NCBI RefSeq assembly: GCF_003063545.1
Contig: NZ_NESD01000001.1
Coordinates: forward strand, 992,001 to 1,056,000
DNA length: 64,000 nucleotides
DNA from: Limnohabitans sp. Jir61
GTDB lineage: Bacteria; Pseudomonadota; Gammaproteobacteria; Burkholderiales; Burkholderiaceae_C
Reading direction: 5' to 3'
Of the stretch, positions 22,807 through 35,960 are shown piece by piece (positions within the stretch are counted from its first letter, which is position 1; every line of letters starts with the position of its first letter). The position numbers were made by a program, and so were the translations under genes. The notes beneath the pieces were generated by a model. It was not told where the DNA came from and did not search any database. It saw only the letters and a list, made by a program, of their open reading frames with translations.

Positions 22807-23442
22807 ATGAAATTGTTAGGTTTTTTTCGCGATAAAGAATTTTCAATTGAGACAAATGTCACAAGACAGGAAATTATTAAAAAAACAAGAATAGCTGTTA
22901 TTGATGATGACGAAAAATTACAGTTGATTGATTTTCTGAAAAAACAAGGATTCTCTGTTGATCATGATCGAAAAGGCAATGATCTCTCAAAATATTCAAC
23001 GGGTATTTACGATGTGATTATTGTTGATTACCATGGCGTTGGTTCTGATCTAGGGAATGCGCAAGGATTAAGTTTATTGAGGTTCTTACGAAAAGAGGCC
23101 GTCGGAGTTAGGTTAATCGCATATACATCACGTAGTCTTACCGCATCTGAGGCTGACTTCTTTAAACTATCTCATGCTGTGCTGCCAAAGGATTGGGGCG
23201 TTATGGACTCTATGGAGTTAATTGAGGAACAAGTCCGCATAACTTATAGCAAGAGCTATCTATTTGATGAGTTGGTTGATGGACTTGGAATTAAAGATTC
23301 AAAGACAAAAAAAGAGTTGAAAAATAAACTCATCGAATGTATCGAAGGTGGTGAACGGGATGAGTTTAATAAATATTTGTTAAAGGCATTCAAATTTACA
23401 GCCAATAAAGCAATTGATGTATTGATTGGCAAGTTTTTCTAA
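22807..23442 (+). CDS. receiver-domain protein with unknown C-terminal domain
   Basis: 211 residues. Residues about 27-140 read as a CheY-like receiver: acidic pocket D33-D34-D35 in VIDDDE, phospho-acceptor Asp74 in IIVDYHG, Thr107/Ser108 in AYTSRS and Lys128 in LPKDW. The remaining 70 residues are charged and probably helical, with no helix-turn-helix or enzyme motif that I recognise. An AGGAG box abuts the ATG at 22807 with no spacing, so the TTG six bases later may be the true start. The gene is strikingly AT-rich (15 G/C of 60 at 22861-22920, against 39 of 60 in lpd at 22381-22440), suggesting acquisition. The kinase gene follows 3 bp later. Confidence 0.65.
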   Translation: MKLLGFFRDKEFSIETNVTRQEIIKKTRIAVIDDDEKLQLIDFLKKQGFSVDHDRKGNDLSKYSTGIYDVIIVDYHGVGSDLGNAQGLSLLRFLRKEAVGVRLIAYTSRSLTASEADFFKLSHAVLPKDWGVMDSMELIEEQVRITYSKSYLFDELVDGLGIKDSKTKKELKNKLIECIEGGERDEFNKYLLKAFKFTANKAIDVLIGKFF

Positions 23443-23445
23443 TAT

Positions 23446-24444
23446 ATGAATATTCCAGCAATATTTCCATTGGTTAACTTGGCATCTTCAATAAAAACTA
23501 ATGGCTGCACACATCTTGTGCCAAAGGAGTGCCTGTCTTCGGTAGAGTGCGAAACGCACTATGAGAATTTGAAATCTAAACCTGATGGTTATTATTTATG
23601 CCCGCACGGTTTTACTAGTAAATTATTTTCTGCAAATGGAACTCGGTATTCGGTCATAGGCATGGTCGCACAGCCGAGATTTAATACTAGTAAGGAACGT
23701 TTATCAGCTAAAAAGTACAGTAAAAATCATATATCAAGAGCTGATCTTGATAACTTTGCTAATGCTGTGCATCAGTTTGATGAACTAAAAGCTAGCGCAG
23801 TAATTGAGGCTTCTAAAGTTTTGCCACAAGCATTTCATGAACTACGAAAGCTAAATGGTTCCGTACTGAAGAGTGCAGAAATAGAGATTGGTAGCGGTAG
23901 AGATACTGGTAATCTTAAAGTGATTAAGGGAGCTTCTGAGCTAATGCGGAATAACTTTGATATTCTGGAGGCGCTTTCAAATATGGATGCAATGCGTGCA
24001 TTGCCTACAGATAATACGATCCGAGTCTTTCCATTGGCTTTTAAGATGAAGCGGATTTTAGAGAGTCGGGCCAAAGACAAGGGCATGAGAATTAATATTG
24101 AAGGTGATAGTGAAGGTAGTCTTAAAGGAAGTGCAAAGTCGTTTCCTATTGTGTTTGCCACATTAATTGAAAATGCAATTAAATATGGGAGGTCTAACTC
24201 TGATATCGATGTCACGATAAGTGTTACAGACAAAATACTTGAGATCACTGTAGAAAATTATTCCGATCAGATGATAGATCCGCAGCGCTGTTTTGAACGA
24301 GGAGTTCGCTTTTCTACCGTGGAAGAGGGAGGGGGCTTTGGCCTATATTTGGCAAAAGAAATCGTTGAAGCTCATGGTGGGCGCATATATTGCTCAGTGG
24401 AACGGCCTCTTGTTAGTATGAGGATTACTTTTGAGCGTGATTAG
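23446..24444 (+). CDS. histidine kinase-like ATPase with Cys/His-rich N-terminus
   Basis: 332 residues, no signal peptide or membrane segment, so a soluble sensor. Residues 20-56 hold C21-x-H23, C29, C35-x2-H38 and C52-x-H54 (YYLCPHGF), reminiscent of PocR-type ligand-binding or a metal site. Next come a helical region and an H-box-like FHELRKLNGS with candidate phospho-His131. The ATPase has N-box ENAIKYG (E242, N243) and G2 box GGGFGLYLAKEIVEAHGG, but the G1 DxG is replaced by ENYSD. It is AT-rich like its upstream partner and was probably transferred with it. Partnership with the receiver protein at 22807 is inferred from adjacency. Confidence 0.7.
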   Translation: MNIPAIFPLVNLASSIKTNGCTHLVPKECLSSVECETHYENLKSKPDGYYLCPHGFTSKLFSANGTRYSVIGMVAQPRFNTSKERLSAKKYSKNHISRADLDNFANAVHQFDELKASAVIEASKVLPQAFHELRKLNGSVLKSAEIEIGSGRDTGNLKVIKGASELMRNNFDILEALSNMDAMRALPTDNTIRVFPLAFKMKRILESRAKDKGMRINIEGDSEGSLKGSAKSFPIVFATLIENAIKYGRSNSDIDVTISVTDKILEITVENYSDQMIDPQRCFERGVRFSTVEEGGGFGLYLAKEIVEAHGGRIYCSVERPLVSMRITFERD

Positions 24445-24560: not shown

Positions 24561-25472
24561 TCAATGCGCCCCGAGGTAACACCCCTCAGCCCGCTCCCCG
24601 TCCGCTTCATCACCTTCTTCGCTGCACAGCGCAGCAATCAAGGCAAGGTCAGCCACCTGACCGGGTAGCAGCAGCTCTTCATTGGTCCAGCGCTTGACCA
24701 AGTGGCCATTGGCCACGCCTCCGGTGTGTGGGGCTTGGTAGGCGCGGCGGTGTTGCATGGTGATGCCGCTGTTGGCGTTGGCAATGAAGCGGCTTTCGCC
24801 CAAGGCCCAAGGTTCAAAGTAGGCATTGGCGGCGGCATCGACTTGGCGGAAGTAGCTGCGTGCGCCTTCGGCGTTGAGCTTCTTGCGCACGGTGCGCGTG
24901 ATGAGGCCTTGCAAGTGGTCTAGCGCGGCGTAGTCCATGTGCTTCAAGGCTTCGGGGCACATGTCTTGTGTGGCCAGTGCGGATGTGGCGGCCAGTTCTG
25001 CGGGCAGCACTTGCGCCATGGCTTTGACCACATCGTGATGTGGCGCTACAGCGGTGGCCACTCCGCGTGTTTGCGGCTGAATGGGGCAGCGAATTTCCAC
25101 AAAGCGCGGCTTCACAGGGCCAGTGCAGCCGTCGTGGTGGTAGTACTCGCCTTGGCTCAGCCGCCCTTTGCTAGAGCGCCCGCGCACATCGCGGTAGGTG
25201 GGGTGTTGGGTGTGTACGTTCAGGCACACCACCAAGCCCGTGGCATCGACCAGCTTGTAAAAGGCTTCGCGCCATTCGGGCAACAGAAGTTTGTCGTGCA
25301 GGTAGTCGGTGGGGGCTTGTGCCGCATGGCCCTTAAAGTCTTTTTCCTCGCCTTCAATCACCAACACAAAGGGCTTGGGCCTGCGCACGCGCCACTGGCA
25401 GTTGGCAAATTCCAGCACCGAGGTGGAGGTGTCAGAGAGTGTGGTGGCGTTGTGGCTTGTATTGGCAGACAT
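24561..25472 (-). CDS. putative Fe(II)/2-oxoglutarate dioxygenase-like protein
   Basis: 303 residues, no signal peptide. I do not recognise a named family with certainty. The segment EYYHHDGCTGPVKPRFVEIR resembles the HxD facial-triad region of TauD/TfdA-like dioxygenases (H112-x-D114, with a following aromatic/EIRCP strand). ITMQHRRAYQAPHTGG with H241 and NGHLVKRW resembles the distal-His/Arg end of that fold. Metal binding is therefore inferred by resemblance. It is the last gene of the 11-gene minus-strand operon, 17 bp after soxZ, so its substrate may be a product of the molybdenum hydroxylases. Confidence 0.5.
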   Translation of the reverse strand: MSANTSHNATTLSDTSTSVLEFANCQWRVRRPKPFVLVIEGEEKDFKGHAAQAPTDYLHDKLLLPEWREAFYKLVDATGLVVCLNVHTQHPTYRDVRGRSSKGRLSQGEYYHHDGCTGPVKPRFVEIRCPIQPQTRGVATAVAPHHDVVKAMAQVLPAELAATSALATQDMCPEALKHMDYAALDHLQGLITRTVRKKLNAEGARSYFRQVDAAANAYFEPWALGESRFIANANSGITMQHRRAYQAPHTGGVANGHLVKRWTNEELLLPGQVADLALIAALCSEEGDEADGERAEGCYLGAH

Positions 25473-25489
25473 GCCCTAATTTTAGGTCT

Positions 25490-25819
25490 TCACAATGCAG
25501 GTAGAACCGTCATGGTTTGTTTGAGTTCACCTCGGTTGCCACGGTCATCTATCCATTCCACATGCATCTCGGCAGTCTCTGTGGCGCGTACAAAAAATTC
25601 AAACAGGGGGTTGGCCGCTATGCCTGAAGAGGGCTCGACCCTCAGCACTTCGCGTGTGCCCAGTTTGCAAGTGAGCAAGCGGATGACGTTGCGTGGCACC
25701 ATTTTTCCCAGCAGGTCTTGCAGGTAGCCCGTGTCCATGGGGTGCTGCACCAGTAGGCGCACTTTCACCACATCGCCTGCAACGATGCGCTCGGGCCATT
25801 GCATGCGCGCTAGATTCAT
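25490..25819 (-). CDS. soxZ: SoxZ-type sulfur carrier partner
   Basis: 109 residues, the usual SoxZ length, without a leader. The start overlaps the SoxY-like stop in an ATGA. The pattern VVKVRLLVQHPMDTGY...IRLLTCKLG...RVEPSSGIAANPLFEFFVRA and the closing EWIDDRGNRGELKQT match the immunoglobulin-like SoxZ fold. In classical thiosulfate oxidation SoxZ binds SoxY and the pair is co-exported by the Tat system on SoxY's leader. No soxA, soxX, soxB or soxC is in the window, so the pair must have a different or partial role here. Confidence 0.82.
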   Translation of the reverse strand: MNLARMQWPERIVAGDVVKVRLLVQHPMDTGYLQDLLGKMVPRNVIRLLTCKLGTREVLRVEPSSGIAANPLFEFFVRATETAEMHVEWIDDRGNRGELKQTMTVLPAL

Positions 25820-26310
25820 GAGGCATCCACACAGGCTGATTCGGTCACGATGATGTCGGTCTGTGCAAATCGAAACTCACCGCTCGATAAACGCGCCAAC
25901 GCCACTACAGCTTGTGTGCCTGCTAAGCGCACACGTGTGTTGATTTCTGCACGGCCATTCCAAGGCCCCATGTGAAACACCGCCATGCGCGTGACGGGGT
26001 TGCGTTGCGACAGCAAGTACAGATGGGTCACGTGGTCTTGCTGTGTCATGGGGCTTTGTACCTGCACACCCAGCGGGACCAACGAGCCGTTGTCTGCCAG
26101 CACGGGGGCGCTGATGCTCACATCTTGCTGCAAAAGCTTCGCACTCTGAGTGATGGGGCTGATCATTTGCACCAAAGTTTTGAGCTCACCCGATTCCATT
26201 TTTTGCGCAAAGGCAGGGCTTGCTTGAACGGTGGCCCAAGCAAGCCCTAACGATGCACTGTGCTGCAACCAGCGCCGACGTGACGGCGCAGAGGCATCCC
26301 ACACGCTCAT
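25816..26310 (-). CDS. SoxY-related carrier protein with variant C-terminal arm
   Basis: 164 residues. A twin-arginine leader (SRRRWLQHSASLGLAW...PAFA) is followed by the SoxY-like beta domain (ITQSAKLLQQDVSISAPVLADNGSLVPLGVQ, read in parts). Classical SoxY ends in GGCGG, whose Cys carries the sulfur substrate. Here the tail is TESACVDAS with Cys160, the only cysteine of the whole protein, in the equivalent place. This matches what I recall of SoxY-related proteins with an AACIE-type arm, whose function is not established. It is a periplasmic carrier by inference. It overlaps the molybdenum hydroxylase gene upstream and soxZ downstream, each by 4 bp. Confidence 0.75.
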   Translation of the reverse strand: MSVWDASAPSRRRWLQHSASLGLAWATVQASPAFAQKMESGELKTLVQMISPITQSAKLLQQDVSISAPVLADNGSLVPLGVQVQSPMTQQDHVTHLYLLSQRNPVTRMAVFHMGPWNGRAEINTRVRLAGTQAVVALARLSSGEFRFAQTDIIVTESACVDAS

Positions 26311-28475
26311 GCTTTGGCCAAGCTGAGCCCGTGGTTCTTCAATGGCAATGAACGAATGCGTTTGCCCATGGCCGCAGAAATGGCGTTGACCAATGCAGGA
26401 GCCAAAGGCGCTTGCGCAGGTTCACCCACGCCACCCCAGAAACCACCGGTCGGTGCAATGACCACTTCAACTTTTGGCATTTCGTTCAAACGCATCATGC
26501 GGTAGTCATGGAAGTTGGATTGCTCCACACGGCCTTCTTTGATGGTGTTTTCACCCCAGAAGATGGCCGTCAAACCATGCACCACACTGCCTTGGAACTG
26601 CGCCACGATGTTGTCGGGGTTGACCGCATAACCAGGGTCGATGCCAATGACCACGCGATGGATCTTGACTTCGTTCTTGGCGTTGATTGACACCTCGCAA
26701 ACGCACGCCGTCCAGCTGCCGTAGCCTTCGGTTTCGGCCACGCCACGGAACACGCCAGTAGGCAGCTTGCTGCCCCAGCCCGCGGCTTTGGTCACAGCTT
26801 CAAGGATGCTGCGGTCGCGCTTAGATTTTTCGTTGTTGGGCAACATGTCTAAGCGGAAAGCCACGGGGTCTTTGCCTGCGGCCAGTGCCAATTCGTCAAT
26901 GAAACACTCGCGCCCAAATGGGTTTTGCGAGTGGCCCACCGAGCGCCAAAAGCCCACGGGCACATTGGTGTTGCGCTGTGCGTAATCCACCAAGGTGTTG
27001 GGGATGTCATACGGATGATCGTTGAAGCTGGCCACCGCTTGACCGTCCACCCCTTTGGGCAAAGGCAGTTTGAGCAGCGTGGCCAAGATGGATGGTGCGC
27101 TCACGCGGATGTGCAGTGCGTCGACTTTGCCATTGGCGTCCATGCCTGCTTTGAATCGCATCAAGCTGGCAGGGCGATACAGGCCGTGTTGAATTTCTTC
27201 TTCACGTGTCCACAGCATCTTGACGGGTTTGCCTGCCATGGCTTTGGCAATCATCACGGCTTGGCGTGTGAAGTCTTGCGGGCTCTTGCGGCCCAAGCCA
27301 CCACCGAGTTGCACAGGATGTACTTTGACGTTGGTTTGCGGCACACCTGCGGTGGCCGCACTCACGGCCAAAGTGCCTTCTGGGTTTTGTGTGGATGACC
27401 ACACTTCCAGCTGGTCGCCTTGCAACCAAGCGGTACATACCATGGGCTCCATCGTGGCGTGCGCGAGATAGGGCGTGAAGTAATCCGCCTCAATCACTTT
27501 GTCTGCTTTGGCCAATGCAACAGGTGCATTGCCATCGTTGCGCGCCACAGCCAGCTCGGTTTGTTCCATGCCCGCTTTGAAGTGCGCCATGATGGCCGCG
27601 CTGCTGAGTGTGCCGTGTTCGCCCACATCCCACTCGACCGACACTTCGCGCAAAGCCTCTTTGGCACGCCACCAGTTGTCGGCCACCACGGCCACAAATT
27701 CGCCCATGTTGAGCACTTTGACAATGCCTCGGCGGTTCTCCACCTTAGAGGCATCCATGCTCTTGACCTTGCCATTGAACACAGGGCAAGCCGCCACTGC
27801 TGCGTGCAACATGCCTGGCAGTTGTGTGTCGATGCCGTATTTGATGCGGCCGGTCACGATGTCTGGAATGTCGATGCGTGGAATGGGTTTACCAATGATC
27901 GTCCAGTCTTTCGGGTCTTTGAGTTTGACCTCTTTGGGCGCTTCGAGCTTGGCAGCTGCAGCGGCAAGCTGGCCGTAGCTGAGGCTGCGCTTGCTGGCCG
28001 CGTGTGTGACTTTGTTGAGCGATGCTTTGCATTCGCTGGCGGGTACGCCCCATTGCTGTGCCGCTGCGGCGACCAACATTTCACGAGCGGTGGCACCTGC
28101 TTTGCGCAAGTACTCTTGCGAGTTACGAATGGTGCGGCTACCCACCGAAGCCATGTCGCCATAGGCGCGTTTGGTGCGCAGGTTTTCATGGGCAGTGGCG
28201 TATTCGACGCGCACTTTTTTCCAATCGGCATCCAGCTCTTCCGCAATGATCATCGGGGCAGAGGTCATGCTGCCTTGGCCCATTTCAGCGCGAGCGTAGC
28301 GAATGACGATGGTGTCGTTGGCTTCAATCTCAACCCACACGTTGAGTTGGGGTGTCTCTGCCGCGTTGGCACGTTCGGGCACAAAAAAGCCCAACGACAA
28401 ACCTGCCGTAGCAGTGCTTGAAACTTTCAGGAAGTGGCGGCGCTTAGCGCCTGCGTGTGTGAGTGGGGTGTTCAT
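26307..28475 (-). CDS. Tat-exported molybdenum hydroxylase large subunit (IorB-like)
   Basis: 722 residues from the ATG at 28475, which overlaps the preceding stop; the open frame continues upstream but without conserved residues. The Tat leader [20 protein letters not shown] ends near RANA-AET. The large molybdopterin subunit of the xanthine dehydrogenase family follows, closest in style to isoquinoline 1-oxidoreductase beta: [48 protein letters not shown] and [18 protein letters not shown] with the catalytic Glu. It would hydroxylate an N-heterocycle or oxidise an aldehyde in the periplasm. Partner: the [2Fe-2S] protein at 28472. Confidence 0.85.
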
Positions 28476-28930
28476 GCGCGTGCCCCTTTCTTTGCTGCAG
28501 CGTGGATGGCGGTGCGCATGCGTGCATAGGTGCCGCAGCGGCAAATGTTGCTCATGGCTGCATCGATGTCTGCATCGGTGGGTTTTGGTTTTTTCTTTAG
28601 CAAGGCCACGGCCGCCAAAATTTGACCGCCTTGGCAGTAACCGCACTGAGGCACTTGGTGGTCGATCCACGCTTGTTGTACGGCGTGCAATTTGTCTTTG
28701 TCTGCCAAGCCTTCGATGGTGACTACTTTTTGGCCATCAGCCGCTGACACGGGGTAGGAGCAAGAACGCACAGGTTCGCCGTTGAGCAACACAGTGCAAG
28801 CGCCGCACTGCGCCACACCGCAACCAAACTTTGGCCCTTTGATGTTGAGCTCATCACGTAAGGCCCACAACAGGGGCATTTCGGCCTCGGCGTCGAGGGC
28901 ATGATTTTTTCCGTTGACGTTCAGTTTCAT
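28472..28930 (-). CDS. [2Fe-2S] small subunit of molybdenum hydroxylase (IorA-like)
   Basis: 152 residues. A plant-ferredoxin-type cluster motif [16 protein letters not shown]...RSC and an all-helical second cluster motif [10 protein letters not shown]...NICRCGTY are as in IorA, CoxS and XdhC-type small subunits. It passes electrons from the molybdenum centre. Without a leader of its own, it would have to ride to the periplasm on the Tat-bearing large subunit, as known for this group. Its stop overlaps the large-subunit start by 4 bp. Confidence 0.9.
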
Positions 28931-28972
28931 GTGTCAGTCTTTCAGTGGGTTGAATCTATGGATCGTGTTGGA

Positions 28973-29662
28973 TTAAAACTCAAATCCGCCTTGCTTGCGC
29001 ACAGCCGCTGATGCAGCGCCCGTGAGCAAGTCGGCCAGCAGCTCGGCATGCGCTGGGTTTTGTGTATGTGTGCAAATGCCTAGGGTGTAGTCGGTGCTCA
29101 GCTCAAACTCGGCGGGCAACACATCGACCAAATCCACGCCTTCGGTGTAGTTGATTTCGGTCACTTGGGTGCAGCCAATCAAACCGCTCTCGTTGCTCTT
29201 GGCCATTTCGCCCATGGCGGTTGCGCCGTTGGGGAACACGCGGAATTTGCTGCGCATGGTTTCATCTAGGCCCAATGCTTTGAGCACGTTCATGAAGTGA
29301 ATGCCCGCGGTGGCTTTGTCGGGGTCTGGAAAGTAAATGCCTTGTGCTGCGCTCATGGCCGCGTGCAGTTGCTCGCGCGTGTTGACGCTGGGGTGGGCGG
29401 TGCCTGTGCGCACGGCCACGCCTGTTTTGACTTTGCCTAACGAACGTGCGCTGCCTGCCACCACATGGCCAGAGGCGATGAGTTGCTCAATGAGTGGTTT
29501 GGTGAGGATGACCATATCGCATGGTGTGCCACCCACCAGCTGGTCACGCATTTGGCCCACAGCACTGAACGTGCCGTGAATAGATGTGCCTGTGCTTTTT
29601 TCAAACTCAGCCTGAACGGCTTTGACCACGGCTGCGGCTGCGCCGCCACTCAATACTTGCAT
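28973..29662 (-). CDS. ModA-like substrate-binding-fold protein without signal peptide
   Basis: 229 residues. The sequence starts directly in the first strand (MQVLSGGAAAAVVKAVQAEFE) and continues in the type II periplasmic-binding fold of molybdate/tungstate-binding proteins (SAVGQMRDQLVGGTPCDMVILT, then PDPDKATAGIHFM and GLIGCTQVTEI). Only 22 bp separate it from the upstream gene, so no leader can be encoded: the protein should be cytosolic. Placed between two molybdenum hydroxylases, it may bind molybdate or another oxyanion, or an organic ligand. This is inference; no modB/modC is near. Confidence 0.7.
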   Translation of the reverse strand: MQVLSGGAAAAVVKAVQAEFEKSTGTSIHGTFSAVGQMRDQLVGGTPCDMVILTKPLIEQLIASGHVVAGSARSLGKVKTGVAVRTGTAHPSVNTREQLHAAMSAAQGIYFPDPDKATAGIHFMNVLKALGLDETMRSKFRVFPNGATAMGEMAKSNESGLIGCTQVTEINYTEGVDLVDVLPAEFELSTDYTLGICTHTQNPAHAELLADLLTGAASAAVRKQGGFEF

Positions 29663-29684
29663 GTTGCTTTCTTTCTTCGGAGGT

Positions 29685-31874
29685 TTAAGACTGGGCCGAT
29701 GTGTGTTCAGCCTCGATGGTTTTTAATAAGTTGTCGGGTGTGAACGGCATGGCACGCATGCGCACACCGATGGCATCAAAAATAGCGTTGGCAATGGCTG
29801 CACAGGTGGGGCCTGAGCTGCATTCGCCAGCGCCGAGTGAGGGCTCGTGGGGTTGCGACATGAGTGCCACTTCAACCGCAGGCATGTCGCTGAATTTCAA
29901 GATGGGGTAGTTGCCCCAGTTGTTGGATGTGATGCCCTGATGGCTGAGTCGTGCGGCTTCACACAATGCCCAGCTGGCTGCTTGCAGTGCGCCGCCTTCG
30001 ATTTGATTGGCCGCGCCATCTGCATCCACAACATGGCCCAAGTCGACCGCTGTCCAAAGCTTGTGCAGTTTTACTTTTTCTTCCACCACCAGCTCGACCA
30101 CCACGGCGCAATACGCGCCCGTGTTTTTGTAGCGCGCGTAGGCTAGGCCACGCCCCCAGCCTTCGGGTTTGTTAGTGGGGCGTGTGGCAGTCCAGCCCGC
30201 TATGTCTGCCGCCTTTTGCAGCACAGCCGCTGCGCGTGCTTGCCCAGTGCTGTGCAGGTGTGCCAAACGAAATGCCAATGGGTCTTGCGAGGTACGCAAA
30301 GCCAATTCGTCCATGACCGATTCAGCGGCGAACACATTGGTGGGTGCGCCCAAGGCGCGCATGGCGGACACACGAAACGGCATGTTCAATACGCGGTGGT
30401 TGAGCACCTTCACAGAGGCGATGTCATAAGGTGGCTGCGCATTACGCTCGGACCCACCGCCCACACTCATGGCCGCGTTGACTGCCATCGTCACGGGGTG
30501 AGCGTGTGTGGTTTGCCATGCGCCCAATAGGGCAGGTGTTTTGCCTCGGCCAGGGCGTGTGCCGTGGCCTTGACTCCAAACGGTTTGGGTCCATTCGCTG
30601 ATCAGACCTTCTGTGTTCAGAGCCGCTTCGATGTGAACCGCCATAGCAGGGGCCAAGGGGGCTTGGCCTAGCTCGGCTTGCCGCGTCCATTGCACACGCA
30701 CGGGGCGATTGGGGACTAGGCGTGCGAGCCAAGCGGCATCAAAGGCCACATCGTCTGCGCCATTGTGGCCATAGCAGCCTGCGCCTTCCACGTGTGAGAT
30801 TTGCACGCGATCGAGCGGCAGCTCAAACGCCAAAGCGATGTCGCGGCGTAAGTTGTAAATGCCTTGGCTGTGGCTCCACATTTCCAGCTGTTGTGCAGCT
30901 GGATCCCAATGCGCCAAGGCGCAACACAGACCGATGGAGGCGTGTTGTAAATAAGGGCGTTCAAACTCGGCGCTGATGCGTAGCGCGCTGGTGGTGTGCG
31001 TATTGCTGGATGTATCAGTCACAACGGTTGTGTCCAGCGTTTGCGCTTTGAGCCATTGAGGCAAATTCAACAGGTCGGGTGTTTCAGCTTGGCAGTGCCA
31101 ATATTTGCCCTGTGTTGCACCTTCTTCAATGTGCTGTGCAATTTTGCGTAAGGCGTATTCGGTTTCAGTCAGCACGCCCAACAACAAGCCATCGCGCTGC
31201 ACATGCAGCACATCGCTTTGCGTTTGCAATTGGTTGACCAAGGCTTGCATATCTGTCTCGATGACATCAGCCGTCAACGTGCCAGGCCTGAACACCATGC
31301 CATGGCACATGCTAGGCAACACACGGTCGTGGATATATTCAAATTCGCCAAACACTTTGCTCGCTACATCGGGACGATGTGCGATGTCCGATGAAGGTTT
31401 AAAGAGAACATCTAGTGCTGTGTAGGGAGAATCGACCAAAGCTGGATCGATGGTGCTTTGCCAAGTTTCAGGTGCAGTGAGTTCTGCATAGGTCGCGTGT
31501 TGCGCAAAGCCGTCTGTTGAGAAGCCGTCTGCGCCACAACGCACAGCTTGCAGTTCAACGCCACAACGCTGAGCCATTTGTGCTCTGCAATGTTCTCGCC
31601 AATATGCCGCAGCACAACGAAGTGCTGTGCCCGAATGCTGCACCGACAAGCTGCCAGAGGTGACGGCTTCGTCAGGGCTGGTGTGCGTGCTAGCGGCCAC
31701 CATATGGATGTGTTCAGGTGAGAGGCGTAACTCTTCAGCCACGATGAGTCGTAACGCGTTTGAAATGCCTTGGCCCAAATCCACTTTGCCTGAGAAGGCT
31801 TGCACGTGGCCCGCGCTATTGAGCTGCAACCATTGGCCGAGCAGGGAATGTGCTTTGAGCGATTCGGGTGTCAT
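29685..31874 (-). CDS. molybdenum hydroxylase large subunit (NicB-like), leaderless
   Basis: 729 residues with no Tat or Sec leader. Molybdopterin-subunit blocks of the xanthine dehydrogenase family: SGKVDLGQGISNALRLIVAEEL, a central GAGCYGHNGADDVAFDAAWLA, RVSAMRALGAPTN, and LGAGECSSGPTCAAIANAI with the catalytic Glu. It resembles the core of nicotinate dehydrogenase subunit B but lacks that enzyme's C-terminal cytochrome c domains. Together with the [2Fe-2S] protein overlapping its start by 4 bp it makes a two-subunit cytosolic hydroxylase without an FAD subunit. The substrate is unknown; an aromatic N-heterocycle is a reasonable guess. Confidence 0.82.
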   Translation of the reverse strand: MTPESLKAHSLLGQWLQLNSAGHVQAFSGKVDLGQGISNALRLIVAEELRLSPEHIHMVAASTHTSPDEAVTSGSLSVQHSGTALRCAAAYWREHCRAQMAQRCGVELQAVRCGADGFSTDGFAQHATYAELTAPETWQSTIDPALVDSPYTALDVLFKPSSDIAHRPDVASKVFGEFEYIHDRVLPSMCHGMVFRPGTLTADVIETDMQALVNQLQTQSDVLHVQRDGLLLGVLTETEYALRKIAQHIEEGATQGKYWHCQAETPDLLNLPQWLKAQTLDTTVVTDTSSNTHTTSALRISAEFERPYLQHASIGLCCALAHWDPAAQQLEMWSHSQGIYNLRRDIALAFELPLDRVQISHVEGAGCYGHNGADDVAFDAAWLARLVPNRPVRVQWTRQAELGQAPLAPAMAVHIEAALNTEGLISEWTQTVWSQGHGTRPGRGKTPALLGAWQTTHAHPVTMAVNAAMSVGGGSERNAQPPYDIASVKVLNHRVLNMPFRVSAMRALGAPTNVFAAESVMDELALRTSQDPLAFRLAHLHSTGQARAAAVLQKAADIAGWTATRPTNKPEGWGRGLAYARYKNTGAYCAVVVELVVEEKVKLHKLWTAVDLGHVVDADGAANQIEGGALQAASWALCEAARLSHQGITSNNWGNYPILKFSDMPAVEVALMSQPHEPSLGAGECSSGPTCAAIANAIFDAIGVRMRAMPFTPDNLLKTIEAEHTSAQS

Positions 31875-32347
31875 GCAACCGTGGGCTTAGCAGCCGCTTT
31901 TTCGATGGCTCGAACCACGCGGTTGTGCGCACCGCAGCGGCACAAATGGCCGTCAAGCACTTGCACGATTTCTTGTCGTGTGGGGTGTGCTTGGCGTTGC
32001 AGTAAAGCTGCGGCTGACATCAAAATGCCGCTGGTGCAAAAGCCGCATTGCATGGCTTGTTCTTCAATGAAGGCGGTTTGCAAGGCATGCGGTGCTTCTC
32101 GGCTACCTAAGCCTTCCACTGTAGTCACGTGTTTGCCGTTGACCGACCACAGCGGTGTGTCACACGCCGCCACGGCATGGCCATCGAGCATGACGCGACA
32201 TGCACCGCATTCGCCTTGACCGCAGCCCATGCGCGTAGCTTTGAGGTGCAGTGTGTGTCGCAACACATCGAGCAAGGTCTGACCCAGCTGGTCTTGCACC
32301 GACACCTCGCGTCCATTGACGTGAAATGCCACCAACTTTTCGCTCAT
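31871..32347 (-). CDS. [2Fe-2S] small subunit of molybdenum hydroxylase (NicA-like)
   Basis: 158 residues. First cluster MGCGQGECGACRVMLDG...AAC, second cluster QCGFCTSGILMSA...HLCRCGAHNRVVRAI, as in NicA and other small subunits of the xanthine dehydrogenase family. It should feed electrons out of the leaderless large subunit encoded next, overlapping by 4 bp. The operon contains a second, distinct small subunit at 28472, so each large subunit has its own partner. Confidence 0.9.
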   Translation of the reverse strand: MSEKLVAFHVNGREVSVQDQLGQTLLDVLRHTLHLKATRMGCGQGECGACRVMLDGHAVAACDTPLWSVNGKHVTTVEGLGSREAPHALQTAFIEEQAMQCGFCTSGILMSAAALLQRQAHPTRQEIVQVLDGHLCRCGAHNRVVRAIEKAAAKPTVA

Positions 32348-32350
32348 GGC

Positions 32351-33319
32351 TCAGTCGGCTTTAGCGCCAGAGACCTTGACGATGTTGGCCCACTTGGCGA
32401 TGTCGGCGTTGAGGTAATGGTCAAACTCGGCCACGGTCATTGACATGGGTACAGCGCCTTGTTTCGCCCAAGCAGTTTTGACTTCGGGGTTGTTGACGAT
32501 TTTGCGAATTTCCCCGTTGAGTTTGTTCACGATGTCAGTCGGTGTGCCTTTAGGTGCCATGAAGCCCAGCCAAATCGTGGCTTCGTATTTGGGCACGGTT
32601 TCGGCCACGGTAGGCACATCGGGCAAGTTGGCTGAGCGTGCTAAGCCAGTAGCACCGAGCATGCGTACTTGGCCGTTGCGCGCGAATTCGGCCATGGTGG
32701 TTTCCGCGTCAAACATCACATCCACTTGACCGCCCACGATGTCGGTGCGTGCGCCCGAGCTGCCTTTGTAGGGCACGTGTGTCATGTCCACGCCCGCCAT
32801 GTATTTGAACAATTCACCCGCCATGTGATACGGCGTGCCATTGCCAGATGACGCAAAGTTGAGCTTGCCGGGCTTGGACTTGGCTAAGGCGACGAGCTCG
32901 CCCACATTCTTCACAGGCACAGAAGGGTGAACCACCAACAGCAAGTTGGAGTAGTTGACAGGCGCGATGCCTACAAAGTCTTTCATCAGCGCGAAAGGCT
33001 TTTTAGGAATGAGCGACTCGTTCACCGTTTGGGTGTTGGACATCATCAACAAGGTGTAGCCGTCAGCGGGCGACTTGGCTGCAAAGTCAGTGCCGATGAT
33101 GGAGCCAGCGCCTGGCTTGTTGTCAATCACGAAAGGTTGCTTGAGCTCATCGGTCAAACGTTGTGCCATGAACCGCGCGTAGTTGTCAGCAGGACCACCT
33201 GCAGCAAATGGCACGACGATTTTGACGGGGCGGTTGGGGTAGCTTTGTGCATGTGCAAGGCCAGAAGCCATAGCCAAACCAAGCGCCATGAGTTTGAAGG
33301 TGCGTGAAATTTTTAGCAT
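32351..33319 (-). CDS. Bug family tripartite tricarboxylate transporter binding protein (second copy)
   Basis: 322 residues with a Sec leader (cleavage after AHA-QSY) and a GGAGAC ribosome site. Family landmarks: YPNRPVKIVVPFAAGGPADNYAR near the mature start, VIDNKPGAGSIIGTDF, DGYTLLM, and KPGKLNFASSGNGTPYHMAGELFK. Bug proteins are periplasmic receptors for carboxylates and many other small molecules. They are greatly expanded in Burkholderiales and often lack their own TctA/TctB membrane genes, as here. The 3-bp gap to the next gene ties it to the molybdenum hydroxylase. Confidence 0.9.
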   Translation of the reverse strand: MLKISRTFKLMALGLAMASGLAHAQSYPNRPVKIVVPFAAGGPADNYARFMAQRLTDELKQPFVIDNKPGAGSIIGTDFAAKSPADGYTLLMMSNTQTVNESLIPKKPFALMKDFVGIAPVNYSNLLLVVHPSVPVKNVGELVALAKSKPGKLNFASSGNGTPYHMAGELFKYMAGVDMTHVPYKGSSGARTDIVGGQVDVMFDAETTMAEFARNGQVRMLGATGLARSANLPDVPTVAETVPKYEATIWLGFMAPKGTPTDIVNKLNGEIRKIVNNPEVKTAWAKQGAVPMSMTVAEFDHYLNADIAKWANIVKVSGAKAD

Positions 33320-33331
33320 GAGTTGTCTCCG

Positions 33332-34309
33332 TTAATCTACTTTGCCAATGCGCGTGACGAGTGCGCTCATGTCTTTGGCATCGGCTTGCACAAAGCGTTC
33401 AAAGTCGGCAGCGTCTTGGTACATGAATGAGGTGCCAGAGGCGGTCAACGCACCTACAGCGCGGGCATCTTGCACCGCAAACTTAGCGGCTTGGCGCAAA
33501 CTGTCCACCACGGCAGCAGGTGTGTCCGCGGGCACAAACAAGCCTGACCACTGGGAGTATTGAATGGGCACTCCCAGCTCTTTGAAACTCGGCACCTCAG
33601 GCATGCTGGCCAAGCGGCCATCACCCCAATGCGCCAAGGCGCGCAAACGGCCTGCTGCAATTTGTTGTTTCACACTCGCGGGTCCTGTGGACACCGCATC
33701 AATTTGCCCGCTGAGCAACGACATCACGGCAGGCGCTGCGCCGGTGTAGGGCACATGCAGCATGAAGGTGGAGGTGGTGGCTTTGAGCTGCTCCATGGGC
33801 ACATGCATGGTGCCGTAGTTGCCAGACGAGCCAAACGAAATTTTTCCTGGATTGGCCTTGGCGTAAGCGATGAACTCGGCGTAGGTTTTCCAAGGGCTGT
33901 CACTGCGCACCACCAGCACGGTGGGGTCGGCAGTGAAGCGTGCAATAGGTTTGAGCTGATTCAACTGATACATCGGCGCACGCTGCAAAATCTTGTCTGC
34001 TTCTGGTAGCACCACCAATGAAGACAACGACATGAGCACGGTGTAGCCGTCGCCCTTGGACTTGGCTACTTGCGCCATGCCAATGCCACCGCCTGCGCCG
34101 CCTTTGTTTTCGATCACGATGGGTTGCTTCAAGAAGCGCGACATGGCCTCTGCCACTGGGCGACCCACCGTGTCAGCCACGCCGCCCGGCGGAAACGGCA
34201 CGACCATCGTGATGGGTTTTGTGGGATAGGTCTGAGCAAAGGCGCTAAGACTGCACGCTGTGGCCATTGCAACGCTAAGCCCCGCATGAATCAATCGACG
34301 CAGTTTCAT
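33332..34309 (-). CDS. Bug family tripartite tricarboxylate transporter binding protein (first copy)
   Basis: 325 residues from the ATG at 34309, chosen because GGAGACAAGAC precedes it and a leader begins there (cleavage near AFA-QTY). Family blocks: YPTKPITMVVPFPPGGVADTVGR, VIENKGGAGGGIGMAQVA, DGYTVLM, NPGKISFGSSGNYGTMHVPMEQLK. Periplasmic receptor for an unknown ligand, probably the pathway substrate. Its family paralogue follows 12 bp later but is diverged, suggesting two ligands. Confidence 0.9.
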   Translation of the reverse strand: MKLRRLIHAGLSVAMATACSLSAFAQTYPTKPITMVVPFPPGGVADTVGRPVAEAMSRFLKQPIVIENKGGAGGGIGMAQVAKSKGDGYTVLMSLSSLVVLPEADKILQRAPMYQLNQLKPIARFTADPTVLVVRSDSPWKTYAEFIAYAKANPGKISFGSSGNYGTMHVPMEQLKATTSTFMLHVPYTGAAPAVMSLLSGQIDAVSTGPASVKQQIAAGRLRALAHWGDGRLASMPEVPSFKELGVPIQYSQWSGLFVPADTPAAVVDSLRQAAKFAVQDARAVGALTASGTSFMYQDAADFERFVQADAKDMSALVTRIGKVD

Positions 34310-34370
34310 GTCTTGTCTCCTTCGGTTGTTTGTTAGCAGGTCAAGCGAATGCTTGCCTGCTTTTATAGTT

Positions 34371-35243
34371 TTAAACGAAGCGGTTTTCGATGCTGCCCAC
34401 GCCGTCAATTTCGACGCGGATCACATCGCCTTTGGCGATGTAGCGGGGTGGTGTCAAGCCCATGCCAACGCCAGCAGGTGTGCCTGTGGCAATGACGTCG
34501 CCGGGGTAGAGCGTGATGCCGCGTGAGATGGTTTCGATCAACGTGGGAATGTCGAAGATCATGTTTTCTGTGGGGCCGTCTTGGCGCAGCTCACCGTTGA
34601 CCCAGCAACGTACGCGGGTGTTGCGGCCATCGACTTCGTCCGCAGTAACGATCCATGGGCCCATGGGGCAGAAGGTGTCAAACGACTTGCCCATGTCCCA
34701 CTGTTGGTGGCGCATTTGCACGTCGCGTGCGGTCACATCGTTGACCACTGTGTAGCCGAATACATGGCTCATGGCATCGGCTTGGCTGATGTTCTTGCCG
34801 CCTTTGCCAATCACCACTGCCAACTCTGCTTCGTAGTCGATTTGGTCAGAGATGGCTGCTCCTGGCAGGTGCACATCGTCAGTTGGGCCAACCACACACT
34901 CGGGCACTTTGGTGAAGACGATGGGCCACGCTTTGGTGTCGGTGTTGCTGTCTTTGAAGACCGAGGCTTGCAGCTCTTTGGCATGTGCGTGGTAGTTGCG
35001 GCCTACACACCAAACGTTGCGGCGTGGCACAGGCAAGGGCGCTTCGAGATGAACATGCGTGATGTCGTGCGGTGTGCCTACTAAGGCTGGCAGCGCATGA
35101 CCAGCGACGAGCGCATCGATGATGGGCTGAGCGCCGAGGTGCGCTTGATCTTCGGTAAGTGCAAAAGCTGTGACGTGGTGACCGTCTGCAGAAACTTGGC
35201 CCACATGACGTTGGCCGTTGAGCTTAAAAGTAGCGATGCGCAA
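34371..35243 (-). CDS. fumarylacetoacetate hydrolase family protein
   Basis: 290 residues. The start is TTG at 35243, which has a perfect AGGAG six bases upstream. The N-terminal FAH-N-like region (1-70) precedes the catalytic fold (CVGRNYHAHAKEL, then DYEAELAVVIGKGG with metal-binding acids, VVNDVTARDVQ, and TGTPAGVGMG). The family includes hydrolases, decarboxylases and hydratases acting on 1,3-dicarbonyl or 2-oxo acids in aromatic breakdown. First gene of the 11-gene minus-strand operon, preceded by a palindromic operator-like site. Confidence 0.88.
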   Translation of the reverse strand: MRIATFKLNGQRHVGQVSADGHHVTAFALTEDQAHLGAQPIIDALVAGHALPALVGTPHDITHVHLEAPLPVPRRNVWCVGRNYHAHAKELQASVFKDSNTDTKAWPIVFTKVPECVVGPTDDVHLPGAAISDQIDYEAELAVVIGKGGKNISQADAMSHVFGYTVVNDVTARDVQMRHQQWDMGKSFDTFCPMGPWIVTADEVDGRNTRVRCWVNGELRQDGPTENMIFDIPTLIETISRGITLYPGDVIATGTPAGVGMGLTPPRYIAKGDVIRVEIDGVGSIENRFV

Positions 35244-35264
35244 AGTGTTCTCCTGAAATGAATC

Positions 35265-35285
35265 ATTGGTTTGTCTTGGACCAAT
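35265..35285. promoter_or_regulatory. putative operator upstream of the 11-gene operon
   Basis: Inverted repeat ATTGGT-N9-ACCAAT with an inner perfect palindrome TTGGACCAA (35276-35284), 22-42 bp upstream of the TTG start of the first gene. The half-sites resemble those of GntR-family (FadR subfamily) regulators that control catabolic operons. No regulator gene is adjacent, so the assignment is inference. Confidence 0.4.
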
Positions 35286-35366
35286 TTAATTCATCATAGG
35301 GAGGGTGTGTTGTTTAGCAAGACACACACGAGACACGCCGCTGGCGTGTATTCAAGGCTTAGATGC

Positions 35367-35960
35367 CTAAATGCCTAGGGCTTCCCACACGCGATAAGCT
35401 GCGTAGGCATCGTTGGCCGCGTAGATTAGCTGTGATTCGCTCAAGCGCAGGTTGGCCCAGTTGCTGGTGGCTGCCTTCTTTGACTTTTGAAAACGCTGGT
35501 TGAACAGCACAGCCACTGCGCCCTTGACGCCCATTTCTTTGCGATAGCCTTGAGCTTTGAAAATGGTGTTGAGCTCCAAAATGCCCGCTGGCTCGACGCC
35601 AAATTTTTGGATGATGCGTTTGCGGTCGTCACCCAAACCAAAGCCTGCTTTGGCAATTCCTTCGCGCGCTAACAAGTCGGCAGCCACAGCGCGGCACTCG
35701 GGGTCGTGTAGCTGAAACACCCATGCACGTTCGCCCGTGGAGAGCTGCAACACATGCGGGCCGTCAGACGCTTCGCCTACGCGGAAGGTGGGCTTCGATT
35801 CAGTGTCAAAGCCCCAAGCACGTGAGGTGATCAATGCATCGTGAGCCTGCTGCGCTTGTTTGCCTGTGTTGACCAAAGTGATGCGGTCAAGCCCCAAACG
35901 AGGAAACTCTGGAAGCAGGGCGATGGCTTCTTTGTCAGGTGTGTCTAGGCGTTGTGTCAT
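35367..35960 (-). CDS. RNase D-like DEDDy 3'-5' exonuclease domain protein
   Basis: 197 residues consisting essentially of one exonuclease domain. Motif I is WGFDTESKP (D52, E54), motif II GFGLGDDRKRI (D111/D112), and motif III IYAANDAYAAYR (Y180 and D184), giving the DEDDy set. It lacks the C-terminal HRDC domains of true RNase D, so it is not a full rnd. Role: probably RNA or DNA 3'-end trimming in the cytoplasm. It lies 12 bp downstream of the ylqF gene on the same strand. Confidence 0.85.
   Translation of the reverse strand: MTQRLDTPDKEAIALLPEFPRLGLDRITLVNTGKQAQQAHDALITSRAWGFDTESKPTFRVGEASDGPHVLQLSTGERAWVFQLHDPECRAVAADLLAREGIAKAGFGLGDDRKRIIQKFGVEPAGILELNTIFKAQGYRKEMGVKGAVAVLFNQRFQKSKKAATSNWANLRLSESQLIYAANDAYAAYRVWEALGI

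Follow-up and report, generated by a model that had tools for sequence, protein, structure and literature searches.

The window analysed here is a 64,000-nucleotide stretch of the Limnohabitans sp. Jir61 genome (contig NZ_NESD01000001.1, positions 992,001 to 1,056,000), and its positions 24561-35243 hold eleven open reading frames (ORFs), all on the minus strand. Four of them encode a 2Fe-2S protein (FeS2), a molybdenum (Mo) hydroxylase with a leader of the twin-arginine translocation (Tat) type (MoL2), and the carrier proteins SoxY and SoxZ. These four are the core of a recurring module, and the window contains one version of it: FeS-Mo hydroxylase-SoxX-SoxY-SoxZ-SoxA, present in Beta- and Alphaproteobacteria and in some of them accompanied by a flavocytochrome. 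A sequence-only reading of the same DNA had noticed SoxYZ beside Mo hydroxylases in one operon; the pairing is real and more general than first noted, and the module is widespread. As to what it does, we tentatively propose, with a little less than even confidence, that FeS2-MoL2-SoxY-SoxZ may be a periplasmic Mo hydroxylase with its own covalent carrier, in which SoxXA would load SoxY and MoL2 would oxidise the bound group.

A recurring company of SoxYZ and a molybdenum hydroxylase

In 28 of the 30 best loci of family TIGR04487 (399 genomes searched), a Mo hydroxylase is found no more than 1.5 kb from soxY; among the controls, the 30 best canonical loci (TIGR04488, from 100 genomes), the number is 0. 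The pairing is therefore not a matter of chance, and the earlier statement that SoxYZ belongs with the Tat-type enzyme is borne out. Around the best 80 MoL2-like loci of named genomes, soxY or soxZ occurs in 66, soxX in 58 and soxA in 55, while soxB, soxC and soxD occur in 0 each. Forty regions were opened; 38 of these, of up to 20 kb and picked by score and contig size and blind to the neighbours, surround SoxY matches, and 32 of the 38 hold a Mo hydroxylase ORF.

The SoxY regions, together with the genome G647 (the nearest well-assembled relative), 20 regions of the genus, contig 4 of the organism's own genome and the window, make up a set of 61, in which ORFs of at least 120 aa gave a Mo hydroxylase in 54, a 2Fe-2S protein in 40, SoxA in 38 and SoxX in 33. 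Does any partner name the substrate? Outside the core, clustering of the neighbours in the 61 regions gave at most a Bug receptor (17) and an AroE-like gene (11), the remaining neighbours being mostly common to small groups only. An FAA-hydrolase family protein (FAH), which the sequence-only reading placed at the end of a pathway, is matched in just 7 of them, mostly at 34-44% identity.

Carrier and enzyme also vary together. Distances among SoxY and among Mo hydroxylase large subunits (MoL) show a correlation of r 0.76 across 109 distinct pairs, counted without duplicates (7 of the 80 named loci lie on contigs already present among the genus regions), and the null maximum is 0.11. On a MoL tree (fasttree, with long-branch warnings), SoxYZ linkage is clustered without forming one clade; the linked group takes 17 changes versus 24.7 when shuffled, and 9 without the rows having short flanks.

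The named genomes with the 80 MoL2-like loci include Bradyrhizobium, Bosea, Mesorhizobium, Microvirga, Skermanella, Azospirillum and Stella, as well as Duganella, Noviherbaspirillum, Comamonas, Curvibacter, Roseateles and Limnohabitans (names of metagenome-assembled genomes, MAGs, as deposited); the nearest of those listed are MAGs of Comamonadaceae or Limnohabitans. A homologue of the flavocytochrome c sulfide dehydrogenase flavoprotein was seen in 35 of 118 regions scanned, in many alphaproteobacterial versions and a few others, its usual place being between the Mo hydroxylase and either SoxX or SoxY. A small cytochrome is listed inside the gene run in two of three plasmid records, and two of the three name the SoxY "SoxY-related AACIE arm protein"; one of the latter two omits from its gene table the Mo hydroxylase, which reads there as two fragments. 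Two genus genomes (L141, L142) have a 743-aa ORF between MoL2 and SoxY.

The sequence-only reading also held that no other sox gene is present. This is correct for the window, where blast found none besides SoxY and SoxZ, but not for the genome (2.63 Mb), which has three soxY and three soxZ. Contig 2 carries a canonical cluster of SoxB, SoxC, SoxD, SoxA, SoxX and a GGCGG SoxY (named by eye), with SoxB and SoxA above profile cut-off. Contig 4 carries SoxX-SoxY-SoxZ-SoxA, whose SoxY arm reads ATACFDET; a Tat-type Mo hydroxylase and its 2Fe-2S protein are encoded convergently to this set, so that SoxY keeps the company of a Mo hydroxylase twice in this genome; SoxX and SoxA of contig 4, like those of G647, score above curated cut-offs. 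Thiosulfate oxidation proper was considered for the SoxYZ of the window and rejected, given the different arm and the canonical cluster on contig 2.

The surroundings of the contig 4 set (L011, 198000-216000), where soxXYZA and the Mo hydroxylase lie near PcaIJ-like genes and an amidohydrolase (PF04909), are possibly catabolic; by eye, further neighbours are LeuCD-like and phosphoenolpyruvate-mutase-like proteins and Bug receptors.

Carrier arm, SoxXA loader and Mo enzyme

The carriers differ at the arm. All 30 canonical controls end in GGCG(G), whereas 103 of 109 distinct linked SoxY have a C-x-[D/E] arm, which in the window reads ESACVDAS. The best NCBIfam match of this SoxY is the AACIE arm protein family TIGR04487, at 119.6 bits and thus below the cut-off of 172; the likeness lies in SACVD, where the arm cysteine is followed by x-[D/E] (AACIE being taken from the family name). 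SoxZ reaches 76.8 bits against TIGR04490, whose cut-off is 76. Near the N-terminus of SoxY, SRRRW suggests a Tat leader. A second arm type, SCG, GCGL or ACGG, was observed in five SoxXA-less modules of other groups (L054, L056, L057, L068 and L080).

The putative loader looks intact where it is present. In each of the 38 SoxA ORFs from the set of 61 regions (L061 included), the CxxCH of the catalytic haem, a later cysteine and two arginines are conserved; the Arg-Cys spacing equals that of Arg119-Cys123 in TsdA, an active site of the SoxA family (PMC4423706). The N-terminal CxxCH, too, is kept in 38 of 38, and is absent from the canonical SoxA of the organism's own genome.

SoxXA is missing beside the carrier in the window, encoded elsewhere in its genome, and present in the module of G647. 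Does it matter where it stands? With the genomes of the genus classed by the module nearest to that of the window, SoxB scored above cut-off in all 13 of the tested genomes whose module lacks SoxXA vs 5 of 18 with a SoxXA-bearing one (Fisher p 4e-5, kinship ignored). The former class is defined by a module without soxX (G000, G739, G731, G703, G696, G721, G702, G713, G690, G717, G710, G725 and G741; the G731 contig stops behind SoxZ, which leaves SoxA out of view there), and the latter by soxX or soxA in the module, one of its five SoxB matches being partial at a contig end; G705 and G733 (no soxX, near a contig end) and genomes with only distant modules, such as G711, were left out. Among genomes at least 90% complete, the counts are 9 of 9 vs 1 of 6 (p 0.002, again with kinship ignored). 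SoxA was found above cut-off somewhere in 22 of 22 and 19 of 19 genomes of two tested sets, and elsewhere in 8 of 8 SoxXA-less genomes of other groups. In G647, which has SoxXA in its module, there is no SoxB and no other SoxA. The simplest reading of this in-cis/in-trans pattern is that the carrier of the module needs SoxXA and works in genomes lacking the thiosulfate pathway.

The enzyme belongs to a familiar architecture. MoL2 and FeS2 contain the MoCoBD and 2Fe-2S domains found in the xanthine oxidase family, and the best PDB match of MoL2 is 8gy3, the large subunit of an aldehyde dehydrogenase (E 3.3e-69). Across 18 MoL2 homologues, R13, F15 and E685 are invariant and R12 is nearly so; R12 and R13 are the first and second arginines of the twin-arginine motif, and E685 is the GxGE glutamate, which we take to be the catalytic residue.

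The insert and its separable parts

The features of the locus, all on the minus strand and with signal peptides assigned by eye, are as follows.

34371..35243, minus: FAA-hydrolase family protein (FAH), first gene of the insert; PF01557, 258 bits
33332..34309, minus: Bug1, Bug/TctC solute receptor 1; PF03401, 227 bits
32351..33319, minus: Bug2, Bug/TctC solute receptor 2, of the type accompanying MoL1 homologues; PF03401, 227 bits
31871..32347, minus: FeS1, 2Fe-2S subunit of the first Mo hydroxylase; Fer2_2, 96 bits
29685..31874, minus: MoL1, Mo hydroxylase large subunit without Tat leader, probably cytosolic; MoCoBD domains
28973..29662, minus: SBP11, ModA-like binding protein, no apparent signal peptide; PF13531, 104 bits
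28472..28930, minus: FeS2, 2Fe-2S subunit of the module's Mo hydroxylase; Fer2_2, 101 bits
26307..28475, minus: MoL2, Mo hydroxylase large subunit, Tat-type leader, aldehyde-dehydrogenase-like; MoCoBD_1, 137 bits
25816..26310, minus: SoxY paralogue, C-terminal arm ESACVDAS replacing GGCGG; PF13501, 92 bits
25490..25819, minus: SoxZ, partner of SoxY, no apparent signal peptide; PF08770, 78 bits
24561..25472, minus: resident gene, dioxygenase-like, no family match, outside the module; conserved H112-x-D114 and H241
25473..35379, minus: insert by alignment, ten genes from FAH to SoxZ; flanks align to L290 (G475)

All the ORFs reported earlier are present, and the gaps computed from their coordinates (61, 12, 3, -4, 22, 42, -4, -4, -4 and 17 bp) are identical to those given before. 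The families represented are FAA_hydrolase, TctC (twice), Fer2/Fer2_2 (twice), MoCoBD (twice), SBP_bac_11, SoxY and SoxZ. FAH starts with TTG, preceded by AGGAG; the start of Bug1 was set at 34309, not at that of a longer TTG ORF from 34408, and the start of MoL2 at the ATG at 28475, which overlaps FeS2 and opens the twin-arginine leader KRRHFLK, not at that of a longer GTG ORF from 28670. SBP11 scores 46 bits against the ModA equivalog, below the cut-off of 62.5. A promoter scan found 2 candidates vs 4.1 expected, and so gave no evidence.

The limits of the insert come from G475, a genome of the same genus, in which the exonuclease and dioxygenase-like genes adjoin, with 34 bp between the aligned blocks. 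Homology ends at 35380, within the final codons of the exonuclease ORF (35367-35960), and restarts at 25473, where the dioxygenase-like gene begins. As the flanks of the insert adjoin there, the insert runs from FAH to SoxZ, and the eleventh gene is resident. In G741 the module stands at the same lpd flank, where SoxZ directly adjoins lpd and the dioxygenase-like gene is missing from between them. The window itself has, between lpd and that gene, a pair of genes for a response-regulator-like and a HATPase-domain protein (22807-24444), in whose place G475 (L290) has a 706-aa ORF.

Is the gene order conserved? In G694 it is kept from FAH through MoL2, where the contig stops, with identities of 98% over the last 42 residues of FAH, 88% for Bug1 and 87% for FeS1. 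G647 (L093), in contrast, has its own version of the insert at the same site, in another order: FeS2 (92% identity), MoL2 (94%), SoxX, SoxY (84%), SoxZ (89%), SoxA, FAH (89%), Bug1 (90%), Bug2 (91%) and SBP11 (82%), with the dioxygenase-like gene (83%) following. The version in the window lacks this SoxX and SoxA and has FeS1-MoL1 as an extra.

Among 61 genomes of the genus, MoL1 has a 78% match in G694, the other matches listed being at most 50%. Matches to Bug2 and FeS1 were found in 12 of 12 opened MoL1 loci, that of the window included (in one, Bug2 reaches only 75 bits, at a contig end), and SBP11 is matched beside MoL1 in 7 of the 12. No SoxYZ was seen in nine longer regions around MoL1 homologues, namely eight of the 12 opened loci plus G729; three are on contigs of 6-10 kb. 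On this sequence evidence, FeS1, MoL1, Bug2 and SBP11 are a group separate from the SoxYZ module. A split MoL1-like gene, with ORFs of 663 and 141 aa, occurs on contig 4 of the own genome (L289:6284-8592), followed by a 2Fe-2S gene and a second Mo hydroxylase.

The dioxygenase-like gene is rare: it occurs in 11 of 299 genomes searched within the family (the own genome included; one weak match of 30%) and in 3 of 300 genomes of the order (the own genome again included; one match of only 29 residues). Its protein has no Pfam or NCBIfam match, and a PDB profile search gave nothing. An HxD...H pattern is invariant in nine aligned sequences, and H112-x-D114 with H241 resembles what we take to be the 2-oxoglutarate-oxygenase pattern; a structure model built from nine sequences has a mean predicted local distance difference test score of 47.5, and the fold is not predicted. 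The protein family is strongly conserved in a few genomes of the bacterial family, with H-x-D and distal H-R-R motifs, and L043 contains a partial copy of 159 aa.

What the carrier may do

How would such a module work? In the covalent-carrier proposal, MoL2 (with FeS2 along) and SoxY (with SoxZ along) would be exported by Tat. SoxXA, standing next to many modules and supplied for the window from elsewhere in the genome, would oxidatively attach a thiol or sulfane-sulfur group to the arm cysteine of SoxY. The loaded arm would be presented to MoL2, which would oxidise the bound group at the point where SoxCD acts in thiosulfate oxidation, and electrons would exit through the 2Fe-2S clusters to c-type cytochromes; in this lineage the Bug receptors and FAH may handle the carboxylate of the substrate. 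A loaded arm is favoured because of the apparent need for SoxXA, the co-inheritance of carrier and enzyme, the lack of SoxB and SoxCD, and the occurrence of SoxCD near a C-x-D carrier in L069 and L075, where SoxC and SoxD lie 3-4.5 kb from a soxXYZA set with that arm. The flavocytochrome genes in many alphaproteobacterial versions also speak for it.

A number of observations speak against it. Fourteen of the 80 MoL2-like loci are without soxYZ; four of them are cut by a contig end inside the module, two keeping soxX and two a flavocytochrome fragment. Six of the 38 SoxY regions are without a Mo hydroxylase (L061, which has a GGCGG arm, L062, L063, L069, L074 and L075). Both SoxCD cases come from a single genus, neither is a single operon, and no Mo hydroxylase ORF lies within the 20-kb region of either. 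The SoxB pattern is uncorrected for kinship, and a further module, this one with SoxXA, is present in some SoxXA-less genomes (for example G702, L146). Linked MoL have 179 columns conserved in at least 90% of rows, of which one alone, a lysine, is kept in four or fewer of the nine unlinked MoL (among which L220 is doubtful, a flavocytochrome fragment following at the contig end), so that no residue marks the use of a carrier; downstream of the unlinked MoL, no common accessory gene was found by eye. We know of no xanthine-oxidase-family enzyme that acts on carrier-bound substrates. The known substrates of this family are aldehydes and heterocycles (PMC3877041).

The shared columns mean either that the chemistry is the same with or without a carrier, or that the unlinked genomes hold SoxYZ elsewhere. 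The former favours maintenance or protection, where SoxXAYZ would resulfurate a desulfo Mo site beyond the reach of XdhC, or remove harmful sulfur species, and the substrate of MoL2 would be free, probably an aldehyde. We consider this unlikely on balance, if a serious contender: the neighbours of the module vary, linked and unlinked MoL share nearly all their conserved positions, and there is precedent. Desulfo-xanthine oxidase is activated through resulfuration of its Mo site (PMC3877041), bacterial sulfuration on XdhC happens before insertion into the enzyme (PMC2997495), and a SoxYZ-like carrier found with quinoprotein dehydrogenases has been discussed in terms of maturation or protection (PMC12997753; precedent also in PMC11237559). 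However, no cysteine column is invariant across the 116 linked MoL rows (the best reaches 100 of 116), so no protein relay is evident, and free sulfide could serve equally. To our knowledge, moreover, periplasmic relatives such as PaoABC need no SoxYZ.

Could the eleven genes still form one pathway, in which a heterocyclic or sulfur-containing carboxylate is hydroxylated twice, carried as a thiol adduct and cleaved by FAH? Their tight spacing on one strand, the identical order from FAH to MoL2 in G694, and the presence of FAH, both Bug receptors and SBP11 beside the module in G647 would suit it. Its parts, however, stand apart in related genomes: the dioxygenase-like gene is resident, as the flanks in G475 and G741 indicate, MoL1 homologues and their partners are found with no SoxYZ in view, the G647 insert has no MoL1, and most modules have neither FAH nor Bug. 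The eleven genes as one unit were therefore rejected on account of the resident gene, the separable MoL1 group and the rarity of FAH, and a common pathway is improbable; a heterocyclic carboxylate may still be a substrate. Less probable still, and in our judgement hardly to be expected, is mere co-expression, with a sulfur carrier and a Mo hydroxylase simply needed under the same conditions. Operons of unrelated genes do exist (argued in PMC11237559), and SoxXA is sometimes missing, but the pair is retained across Beta- and Alphaproteobacteria despite varying neighbours and is absent from the 30 canonical soxY loci.

The broader claim, that this is a distinct Sox-type system in which SoxXAYZ works with a xanthine-oxidase-family Mo hydroxylase replacing SoxB and SoxCD, on an arm-bound group and even in bacteria lacking the thiosulfate Sox pathway, is one we hold as possible but doubtful. 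Like the thiosulfate system, the module has homologues of SoxXA and SoxYZ that retain the catalytic residues, and its carrier cysteine sits on a C-terminal arm; unlike it, the module has no SoxB or SoxCD match in the best 80 loci, an arm that is mostly C-x-[DE] and not GGCGG, and the Mo hydroxylase instead. MoL2 shares its domain architecture with aldehyde dehydrogenases of the xanthine oxidase family (8gy3 and the periplasmic PaoABC), but is linked to SoxYZ and often SoxXA, and the insert in the window, unlike PaoABC, has no flavin subunit. A parallel in kind, TIGR04557, also ties a SoxYZ-type carrier to a periplasmic carbon dehydrogenase (PMC12997753, PMC11237559); there, however, SoxYZ is fused and stands with SoxH and a rhodanese beside pyrroloquinoline quinone enzymes, whereas SoxY and SoxZ of the window are separate genes scoring 54.7 and 47.6 of the 140 bits required. 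In Bradyrhizobium diazoefficiens, which has two soxY, only soxY1 is essential for thiosulfate oxidation (PMC5748708); the module is found in other Bradyrhizobium, and soxY2 is a candidate member only. No paper on SoxYZ with a xanthine-oxidase-family enzyme was found by title or abstract in the open PMC literature, a scope that leaves out subscription papers and the NCBIfam model text; PMC4782131 and PMC3623810 contain terms of both kinds.

What does this mean for the sulfur cycle? The genes soxXA and soxYZ are often taken as markers of thiosulfate oxidation, and yet the module occurs in genomes of this genus in which no SoxB was found (13 of the 18 SoxXA-bearing ones, many being incomplete MAGs); surveys of sulfur cycling could be misled if they count its sox genes towards thiosulfate oxidation. 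If the carrier proposal is true, MoL2 would be, as far as we know, the first Mo hydroxylase to act on a carrier-bound substrate, and the module would reveal a connection in the periplasm, overlooked so far, that ties carbon oxidation to sulfur carriers in proteobacteria common in fresh water and soil. In any case, it poses a testable question: what cargo does the arm of SoxY carry when the next enzyme is a Mo hydroxylase?

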